A DNA stretch of 64,000 nucleotides from Kroppenstedtia eburnea (lineage in GTDB: Bacteria; Bacillota; Bacilli; Thermoactinomycetales; DSM-45169), in the NCBI RefSeq assembly GCF_013282215.1, contig NZ_CP048103.1, forward strand, positions 2,976,001-3,040,000. The letters run 5' to 3'. A program made the translations under genes and the position numbers. The notes beneath the pieces are model-generated. The model was not told where the DNA came from, searched no databases, and saw only the letters and a list, made by a program, of their open reading frames with translations. Within the stretch, counting starts at the first letter, position 1, and each line of letters starts with the position of its first letter. This document shows, one piece after another, positions 19,980-58,387 of this stretch.

Positions 19980-20150
19980 AACCAAAATGGCTGAATCACT
20001 GGATCTGACAGGTTGAACAGCGATTCTCATTGTTGCCGTCAGGAGTTTTCTGTATGATTGAGGTAACGGGATTTTGCCTTTGTACTGGGCTTTTAATGGG
20101 TTTTTAACGTACCTATGAGGAATTGAACCAAATGGGAGGGAGGAGGAAGC

Positions 20151-20405: not shown

Positions 20406-20425
20406 AGAAGGCGTCCGCTCCGATC

Positions 20426-20459
20426 CCATCCCTACCCCATCCCTACCCCATCCCTACCT
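20426..20459 (+). repeat. Short 12-bp tandem repeat
   Basis: CCATCCCTACCC is repeated almost three times just after the coiled-coil gene stop. Confidence 0.8.
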
Positions 20460-20483: not shown

Positions 20484-20778
20484 CAAGAAGTATTGTGATT
20501 TACTGCGTTTGGACGGTCGGGATTGGGTTTCACATGTCGTTTTCGTTGTTCTTCCGAGCCAAAGTCATTCCATGTGAAACCCAACCCTCCCTGCATAGCG
20601 AGACCGGGAACGGAGTGACCTAGGCGAGACTTGTGCTGGTGAGTGCATAGCGAGACCAGGGGCGGAAGCCCCCTGGCGAGACTTGTACTGGTGAGTGCAT
20701 AGCGTGACCAGGGAGCGAAGCGACCCCAGGCACGACTTGTGCCCTGTGGGTATGACGGCTTTTTCACAATGCTTCAAG
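20484..20778 (+). repeat. Miniature mobile element, copy A (three internal modules)
   Basis: The element spans 20488-20774 and is flanked by exact 4-bp direct repeats CAAG (20484-20487 and 20775-20778). Its ends are AAGTATTGTGA and TCACAATGCTT. Inside are the 13-bp inverted pair TGGGTTTCACATG/CATGTGAAACCCA (20524-20536, 20571-20583) and then three modules of about 52 bp starting TGCATAGCG at 20592, 20644 and 20696. It has no ORF of note. Other copies lie at 28414, 28445, 33098, 51383, 54225 and 58196. Confidence 0.85.
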
Positions 20779-20847
20779 TTGGGTTTATATTTTTAAGGAG
20801 ATCCCGACCGGGCCTACGCTATAGATTTATCAGACACGCCCTGATAG

Positions 20848-28413: not shown

Positions 28414-28898
28414 CCAGAAGCATTGTGAAAAAGCCGTCATACCCATAGAAGCGTTGTGAAAAACGCCATTCATACCCATAGGGCACAAGTCTCGCCAGGG
28501 TGCTTTCGCACCCGGTCTCGCTATGCAGGGAGGGTTGGATTTCACATGGAGTGACTTTGGCTCGGAAGAACAACGGAACGAAATGTGAAACCCAATCCCG
28601 ACCGCCTTAAAAGGCAATAAATCACAACGCTTATAGGGCACAAGTCGTGCCTAGGGTCAACTTCGCTCCCTGGTCTCGCTATGCACTCACCAGTACAAGT
28701 CTCGCCAGGGGGCTTCCGCCCCCGGTCTCACTATGCACTCACCAGCACAAGTCTCGCCTAGGTCACTCCGTTCCCGGTCTCGCTATGCAGGGAGGGTTGG
28801 GTTTTACATGGAATGACTTTGGCTCGGAAGAACAACGGAATGGAATGTGAAACCCAATCCCGACCGTCTTCTAACGCAGTTAATCACAACTCTTCCAG
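28414..28898 (-). repeat. Miniature mobile element, copy C (outer copy, three modules, interrupted by a nested copy)
   Basis: In the minus orientation, AAGCATTGTGA (28418-28428) and TCACAACTCTT (28884-28894) are the ends, flanked by exact CCAG repeats (28414-28417, 28895-28898). The body carries the 13-bp hairpin pair and three modules. A second copy is inserted at 28449-28632 between ATAG and ATAG; removing it rejoins ACCCATAG with GGCACAAG as in other copies. It ends 15 bp before the MarR operon -35. Confidence 0.85.
28445..28636 (-). repeat. Miniature mobile element, nested copy C1 (one module)
   Basis: A 184-bp element (28449-28632) with perfect 11-bp ends AAGCGTTGTGA/TCACAACGCTT. It is flanked on both sides by ATAG (28445-28448 and 28633-28636), the duplicated target inside outer copy C. 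It carries the hairpin pair and one module with a perfect GGGTGC-GAAA-GCACCC stem-loop. Confidence 0.88.
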
Positions 28899-33097: not shown

Positions 33098-33194
33098 CGG
33101 TCGGGATGGGGTTTCACATGTCGTTTTCGTTGCTGACGAGCCAAAATCACTCCATGTGAAACCCGACCCTCCCTCTGTTACTCTCACAACGTCT
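33098..33194 (+). repeat. Miniature mobile element, copy D (hairpin only)
   Basis: Contains GGTCGGGATGGGGTTTCACATG-type start (33099 on), the paired CATGTGAAACCC stretch and the right end TCACAACGTCT. No modules are present and the left end is not recognisable. It lies directly after the exporter operon and may act as its 3' hairpin. Confidence 0.75.
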
Positions 33195-33279
33195 CACATT
33201 CCACGGAAACTTGAATGGACCTGCCACACCCTGGGATCGATGGATCCGACCACCACCTGATCACCACTCTCCCCCTTCG

Positions 33280-42080: not shown

Positions 42081-42262
42081 AAAAACCCCCTCAGGATTGA
42101 GAGGGGGTGACCGCGACGGGGATAAACCGCCGGAATTCATCCCACTCCTTATCTCTCAACGCCTGGGCGTTGCAGGATTTGGCACCTTGCCTGCGAACAT
42201 GCGCAGGCGGGTTGCCGGGTTTCATCGGGCCAGTCCCTCCACCACTCTGGATAACGAGTAGA
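42081..42262 (-). ncRNA. SAM-I (S-box) riboswitch with terminator, upstream of hom
   Basis: The minus strand carries the S-box consensus in order: TTATCCAGAGTGGTGGAGGG, then CTGGCCCGATGAAACCCGGC, a variable hairpin (GCCTGCGCATGTTCGCAGGC), AGGTGCCAAATCC, and the closing GAGAGATAAGGAG that pairs back to the start. The aptamer spans about 42144-42262. It is followed by an expression-platform terminator, CCCCCTC/GAGGGGG with a T run, at 42081-42108. High SAM should favour termination before hom. Confidence 0.95.
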
Positions 42263-44557: not shown

Positions 44558-44572
44558 AATATTCCTCCTTAT

Positions 44573-44678
44573 AGCCTCCGAGGTTAGTTGACGGGTTCAG
44601 GATAAGGAGTTCCCGGCCGCACAGCGGCTTCACCCCAAAACAAATATAGTCCCCCGTACCTGAAGTCAGGATTCGGCT
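44573..44678 (-). ncRNA. c-di-AMP (ydaO/yuaA) riboswitch upstream of the SleB-type gene
   Basis: The minus strand follows the ydaO consensus in order: CGAATCCTGACTTCAGGTAC, GGGGGACTATATTTGTTTTG, GGGTGAAGCCGC, GGGAACTCCTTATCCTGAAC, CCGTCAACTAACCTCGGAGG. The closing AGCC/GGCT helix ends only four bases before the Shine-Dalgarno of the downstream gene. No terminator lies between, so control by masking the ribosome site is possible. ydaO RNAs bind c-di-AMP and commonly control wall hydrolases and osmolyte or potassium transport (established). Confidence 0.95.
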
Positions 44679-44697
44679 TGATTTACATACATTAGGA

Positions 44698-51382: not shown

Positions 51383-51520
51383 CTGGAATCGTTGTGATTT
51401 ATGCGTTCAAGGCCGGTCGGGATTGGGTTTCACATGTCGTTTTCGTTGTTCTGACGATCCAAAATCACTCCATGTGAAACCCACCCCTCCCTTTCAGAGA
51501 CTGTTTCGCAACGCTTCCAG
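51383..51520 (+). repeat. Miniature mobile element, copy E (hairpin only)
   Basis: Ends AATCGTTGTGA (51387 on) and TCGCAACGCTT (to 51516), with the TGGGTTTCACATG/CATGTGAAACCCA pair inside and no modules. The flanks CTGG and CCAG are complementary rather than direct repeats. It ends 8 bp after the pilO stop (opposite strand) and could supply the 3' hairpin of the pilMNO transcript. Confidence 0.8.
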
Positions 51521-54062: not shown

Positions 54063-54766
54063 CTCTTAAGTCTTTGATACCCAAGGGAGAAATCCTTTTC
54101 TTCCATTCGTGTTTTTCATATAAAAGAGCAGATTAGTTCTTCCCGGCTAAGCCTTTCAATATATCCCGCCTCAGGCGTGTAGATTAGCCATATTTTGGGT
54201 GGGAGATCGTGTTCTACCACGCGACCGTTGCACCCATAGGGTACAAGTCGCGCCTGGGGTCGTTCCTCCCCGGTCGCGCTATGCCATTCCAGCAAGGAAG
54301 TAACGACTGGCCGCTCCGAATCTTCCGATCGGGCAGGGGCAAAGCCTTACGGAAGCAACACAGGGAAGATTGTTGCCCCTAAACGCCCTCCCTCCAGATT
54401 CTCCGCTGGGTAGGATGGCAACCTTCATCCCTGGGCTTCAGCCCATCTGGACTGTAGTGCCTGTGGTGCAAAGGTCGCTATGGCAGCACACGACTCCCTT
54501 CCACCGCCCACTTTCTGGTTTAATCAACAGCCCTGATCCCGCCTCCCTTTTTTCCATCAACTCCCTCAATCCGTGAACCCCGCGTCAATTCAGGGATTTC
54601 CTTTGTGAATATGTAAACAGAAGCCCCGATACGGGAGAAGGCGTGCGAAGGAAAAAGGCGGGGATTTACCCGGAAAAACAACCTTTTTCCACCCCTAATT
54701 CATCTACCCCGGTGATATCTTCCTAGATATGATGATGATAGGATAAACAACCAAATTCGGTGACGG
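54063..54766. other. 700-bp gap without a supported gene
   Basis: The stretch between pilM and the L,D-transpeptidase gene holds a diverged copy of the miniature-element module (54225-54290), a loose inverted repeat GGGGCAA...TTGCCCC (about 54335-54380), and some short open frames without start signals. It looks like decayed DNA. Confidence 0.5.
54225..54290 (-). repeat. Miniature mobile element, diverged single module (copy F)
   Basis: Minus strand: GCATAGCGCGACCGGGG, loop, CCCCAGGCGCGACTTGTACC, CTATGGGTGCAACG. This matches one internal module of the family, but the terminal repeats and the 13-bp hairpin are gone. The outer base pairs are changed in a compensated way (GCGCG with CGCGC). Confidence 0.65.
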
Positions 54767-58195: not shown

Positions 58196-58387
58196 CTGGA
58201 AGTATTGTGATTTACTGCGTTCTTCGACGGTCGGGATTGGGTTTCACATGTCGTTTTCGTTGTTCTTACGATCCAAAATCACTCCATGTGAAACCCAACC
58301 CTCCCTGCATAGCGAGACCGGGAACGGAGTGACCCTGGGCACGACTTGTGCCCTGTGGGTATGACGACTTTTTCATAATGCTTCTGG
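58196..58387 (+). repeat. Miniature mobile element, copy B (one module)
   Basis: A 184-bp element (58200-58383) with ends AAGTATTGTGA and TCATAATGCTT, flanked by exact CTGG repeats (58196-58199, 58384-58387). It carries the hairpin pair and one module that joins the left half of module 1 of copy A to the right half of module 3. It sits 50 bp before the nadC start, between a broken flavoprotein ORF and nadC. Confidence 0.88.

Follow-up and report, generated by a model that had tools for sequence, protein, structure and literature searches.

The stretch of DNA analysed here, referred to as the window, comprises 64,000 nucleotides of Kroppenstedtia eburnea (positions 2976001-3040000 of a genome made up of one contig of 3,564,999 bp) and carries seven short repeats, which a first-pass annotation had described as a family of miniature mobile elements (MITEs) with AAGYRTTGTGA-type ends. 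The seven sites are related to one another, but only five bear such ends, those at 33098 and 54225 lying in other carriers. The features that concern the family are:

20484-20778 (+): MITE copy 20488-20774, with three 52-bp units and CAAG duplications at 20484-20487 and 20775-20778
20525-20582 (+): hairpin core of the 20488 copy, arms GGGTTTCACATG ... CATGTGAAACCC
20593-20742 (+): three tandem 52-bp modules of the 20488 copy, at 20593-20636, 20645-20688 and 20697-20742
28414-28898 (-): MITE copy 28418-28894, with three modules and CCAG duplications; a nested copy interrupts it
28445-28636 (-): nested MITE copy 28449-28632, with one module and ATAG duplications, sitting in the end of the 28418-28894 copy
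33104-33231 (+): the same hairpin core within another carrier, truncated on its left side (the 33098 site), right end ...TTGAATGGACCTGCCACACCC, no AAGYRTTGTGA ends
51383-51520 (+): minimal MITE copy 51387-51516, with zero modules; flanks CTGG/CCAG, no direct duplication
54163-54544 (-): class B element 54172-54535, a second type of MITE with ends CAGGCGTGTAGATTA/TAATCAACAGCCCTG (CAGG..GATTA), 9-bp duplication ATCCCGCCT, domain D at 54287-54416
54241-54284 (-): single 52-bp module in the class B element (the site listed at 54225)
58196-58387 (+): MITE copy 58200-58383, with one module, flanked by CTGG duplications; the site is precisely empty in K. guangzhouensis

Exact 4-bp repeats flank all four copies for which they had been reported, at 20488 (CAAG), 28418 (CCAG), 28449 (ATAG) and 58200 (CTGG). 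None of the window copies encodes a transposase, as had been noted, and the description of the interior as a hairpin pair plus zero to three copies of a 52-bp module holds in the window; the fitted size classes reach four. The 11-bp end motif AAGYRTTGTGA is matched 11 times in the window with at most one mismatch, against 3.0 expected, and none of 100 shuffled sequences reached this number; the hairpin motif is matched 12 times against 0.6 expected, and the 52-bp module motif likewise exceeds its shuffled expectation. The nested copy 28449-28632 splits GTCATACCCATAG from GGCACAAG, with ATAG on both sides, at a position that is unbroken in other copies of the family.

Several further features were recorded in the window. 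An 11-bp unit (CCTACCCCATC-like) is repeated in tandem over 20420-20458, just upstream of the 20488 copy; a truncated piece of another carrier (ATCCCGACC...TTTATCAGACACGCCCT) adjoins the same copy at about 20800-20833; and a borderline Rfam match to CRISPR-DR2 (36.5 bits against a cut-off of 37) lies near it, at about 20100-20129 on the minus strand. A SAM riboswitch (42146-42257) and a c-di-AMP (ydaO) riboswitch (44558-44688), both on the minus strand, score far over the Rfam gathering score.

Genome-wide copies, insertion sites and proposed transposase partner

Searches of the complete genome return many further copies. BLAST yields 65 matches with the 294-bp copy and 48 with the minimal copy, and the end motif is matched 569 times, against 66 for a reversed control, a surplus that corresponds to about 250 elements. 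Element sizes of 130, 184, 234 and 287 bp form a 130+52n ladder. The end and hairpin motifs were used to locate 51 copies, of which 30 are flanked by exact 4-bp duplications. The set comes from a 464-kb sample plus 30 loci and is not fully random, the last stretches having been chosen near known copies and the 30 loci being the best BLAST matches. The 30 exact duplications read CTAG in 17 cases, CTAA in four, CTAT and TTAG in three each, and CAAG, CTGG and TTAA once each; the dominant target of the family is CTAG/YTAR. An exact duplication is absent from the other 21 copies, which fits old age but would also follow from mis-called ends. Searches of plasmids and viral contigs gave no match.

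The copies are also unevenly oriented. By GC skew, the origin lies near position 0 and the terminus at 1.82-1.98 Mb, and 55 of 75 copies are oriented against the replication fork (p 6e-5), with a second, overlapping tally giving 39 of 51 (p 2e-4). When each copy is counted for both of its neighbouring genes, called by a simple longest-ORF rule, the copies are antisense in 57 cases and sense in 12 beside leading-strand genes, and the corresponding counts beside lagging-strand genes are 12 and 20 (Fisher p 1.7e-5), so that orientation tracks replication more than transcription.

The sister species K. guangzhouensis provides sites for comparison. The flanks of 13 K. eburnea copies were joined and then searched in its genome, where those of about seven of the 13 loci align straight through, with one copy of the target at the junction (CACTATGCT for copy 880361, GCACTGG for the window copy at 58200). 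The simplest reading of these empty sites is that the copies concerned inserted after the two Kroppenstedtia species split. The first-pass annotation had proposed to look for further copies in the genome, for empty sites in sister strains and for a transposase gene with matching ends and 4-bp duplications; the roughly 250 elements, the duplications and the clean empty sites support its MITE reading, and a transposase of this description, of the IS1182 family, exists in relatives.

A search for DDE transposases led to this IS1182-type partner in K. guangzhouensis. In that genome, C32 carries a 1.46-kb element with CTAG immediately before AAGCGTTGTGAAATACGG at one end and immediately after TCACAATT at the other. 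Its transposase is in pieces (DUF772, E 7.5e-19; DDE_Tnp_1_6, E 6.5e-11), the N-terminal piece matching the IS1182 model of NCBIfam with E 2.4e-33. In Paludifilum (L119), a transposase 71% identical to that of K. guangzhouensis starts at CTAG-AAGCGTTGTGAAAAAG, shortly after CTAG-AAGCGTTGTGAAAAAGTCC, and a MITE with matching ends and the class B domain D directly adjoins it. In both IS copies, the end beside the transposase start matches the right end of the MITE at 19 of 26 positions; ends and target are common to the MITE and the IS1182 elements (L100, L119). The reading frames of both IS copies are broken. The K. eburnea genome contains no close homologue of this transposase (best match, 24% identity), and an intact enzyme acting in trans, which would be expected of an active family and is not required of a relic, was not found there. 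The IS701 (PF13546) and general DDE_Tnp_1 (PF01609) genes of the same genome were considered as partners and rejected, since neither has matching ends. Judged by its sequence, the element qualifies as an IS1182-derived MITE: it has inverted ends, is short, encodes no transposase, and occurs with target duplications in many dispersed copies.

Interior modules in other carriers and in 5S rRNA

The hairpin and the 52-bp module (M) are not specific to the MITE, a point that was invisible to the first-pass annotation. The module of the class B element at 54172-54535 is absent from four other class B copies of the genome aligned with it; in the class B copy of L074 the duplication reads AAAAGCCAT. 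The hairpin core is also found inside a carrier that runs from GGGCGTGTCTGATAAAT to TTGAATTGACCTGCCACACCC with TA on either side, to which the 33098 site was assigned by its right end. Copies of domain D (~130 nt) from different genera share about 80% identity, and the domain is highly repeated in M. profundicolus; it resides in 9-bp-duplication carriers in K. eburnea, whereas in Paludifilum and Melghirimyces it is bounded by AAGCGTTGTGA IS1182-type ends. This domain folds plausibly, but its sequence varies too little to show covariation (3 of 30 pairs). The relatives compared by name were Kroppenstedtia guangzhouensis, Melghirimyces profundicolus, M. thermohalophilus, Paludifilum halophilum, Shimazuella alba and Brevibacillus centrosporus; in other genera the BLAST match spans only the module part of the query, and the surroundings differ. 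Carriers of at least three types have interior pieces in common; their duplications are 4 bp, 9 bp and apparently TA.

Module M is older and wider-spread than the MITE. A covariance model detects it in 33 of 399 genomes and 20 of 146 genera of the class, Brevibacillus among them, many with 15 or more copies; a sample of 398 genomes of the phylum adds just one more. An alignment of 32 sequences shows double-sided changes in 11 of the 13 pairs of M and a covariation score of 0.308, compared with 0.123 +/- 0.013 for shuffled alignments and at most 0.064 for slid controls, the latter being partly biased because the alignment was hand-chosen and the structure drawn from the same sequences. The central CGAG/CGAG (tandem G.A) is swapped in other copies for CGTG/CACG, CACG/CGTG, CGCG/CGCG or GGAG/CGAC, and these replacements support a real single-strand fold. 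Pairing of the outermost module bases (GCATAG with TTGTGC) is unsupported, as the 5' side varies and the 3' side is fixed.

Two other Thermoactinomycetales genomes carry module M within 5S rRNA genes, with an Rfam 5S_rRNA match around the inserts in both:

L288:1457-1600: 5S rRNA gene interrupted by one module
L290:1439-1660: 5S rRNA gene interrupted by two modules

One insertion site is the loop that follows the CCCTCCAG strand, the other the loop between GTTCC and CATCCCG; both loops are single-stranded in the established 5S structure. Because the host gene is known, these insertions are unambiguous gains of M. Whether it sits in a 5S gene, a class B element or the MITE, M has the same boundaries, CATAG...GRGTG, and short repeats of 2-3 bp (GC, GCA, CAT) are present at the junctions.

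It is conceivable, as a tentative alternative, that M is an independently mobile minimal unit defined by these ends and moved by some enzyme, and that the MITE merely acquired this unit; such a unit would invade MITEs of several transposon classes as well as 5S rRNA loops, its structure keeping it harmless. The recurrence of the same boundaries at four kinds of site (5S, between CCCTCCAG and CGCC; 5S, between GTTCC and CATCCCG; class B, between GGATGG and CAACCGG; MITE, between CCTCCCTG and TGAATGG) points in this direction, as do the differing surroundings of M across the 20 genera. However, the short junction repeats also allow gain or loss by slippage or microhomology, seven module-bearing genomes, that of K. 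eburnea included, lack Y1 (REP-type) transposases, and the module is present in only two of 30 Y1 gene neighbourhoods.

The strong covariation of M, with its double changes, and the tandem G.A pairs, possible only on the strand with CGAG/CGAG, would also suit RNA elements that the host selects for regulation or processing (akin to riboswitches, terminators or RNase sites), as opposed to selfish DNA. We consider this unlikely: the copies have no fixed relation to genes, their sites in the sister species are empty, their orientation follows the replication fork and not the gene strand, a module lies antisense between two tRNA genes in L287 (G053:C4), and no Rfam covariance model matches the element, even at lenient thresholds. 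Spread as REP/BIME-type repeats by a RAYT transposase, suggested by the short imperfect palindromes, the hundreds of copies and the tandem arrangement, is rejected as highly improbable, since inverted ends with 4-bp duplications indicate a DDE transposase, the K. eburnea genome has no Y1 transposase, and the GTAG or CGTC tag that marks REP families (PMC3733652) is not seen in the element alignments.

Proposed mobilisation and known systems

The reading that we favour, and regard as very probable, is that of a large MITE family that owes its mobility to a DDE transposase of the IS1182 type acting in trans, with an interior made of exchanged cargo. The enzyme would recognise the asymmetric AAGCGTTGTGA-TTTA / AAGCGTTGTGA-AAAAG ends and insert copies into CTAG-like (YTAR) targets, duplicating 4 bp; a transposase of this type presumably moved the copies in the K. 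eburnea genome, although it can no longer be detected there. As cargo and not the remnant of an IS, the interior would consist of the hairpin core (H) with zero to four 52-bp hairpin modules (M) or, in other genera, of the ~130-nt domain (D). Exchange with carriers of other duplication lengths probably proceeded by recombination, nested insertion or array slippage, and M would be a structured single-strand motif of old origin, which RNA loops tolerate.

Such a family would offer a concrete example of a MITE whose interior is a set of structured modules and not IS debris. Carriers with duplications of 4 bp, 9 bp and TA would trade these modules, one of which is an old covarying hairpin able to sit inside 5S rRNA. 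It opens to testing the acquisition of cargo by non-autonomous elements, the solo mobility of a hairpin of about 50 nt, and the source of some rRNA expansion segments.

Among the closest known systems are the IS1182-family MITEs, for example the ISMac2-derived MITE of Methanosarcina acetivorans, which is 160 bp long and present in 14 copies with a 4-bp repeat (PMC3852290). Like it, the Kroppenstedtia element is short, free of ORFs, shares its inverted ends with an IS1182 element and has a 4-bp duplication; unlike it, the family numbers about 250 copies and contains a hairpin core, zero to four tandem 52-bp modules and cargo common to other carriers. An internal tandem repeat array is also found in the BrickBuilt MITE of Porphyromonas gingivalis (PMC4596501), but its units are 23 bp long and it has 19 copies in one strain, whereas those of Kroppenstedtia are covarying hairpins of 52 bp that also occur far outside the MITE. 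TIMEs (PMC4133298) resemble the present family in being small elements that build mosaic non-autonomous transposons; they are derived from Tn3 and have Tn3 ends, whereas the Kroppenstedtia MITE has IS1182-type ends. Expanded 5S rRNAs were described by Stepanov and Fox (2021) in Clostridiales, Halanaerobiales, Thermoanaerobacterales, Alteromonadales and Halobacteriales (PMC7812874); the inserts found here are likewise hairpin-forming, but consist of a dispersed repeat and occur in Thermoactinomycetales. The unusual part of the Kroppenstedtia MITE is its modular structured cargo.
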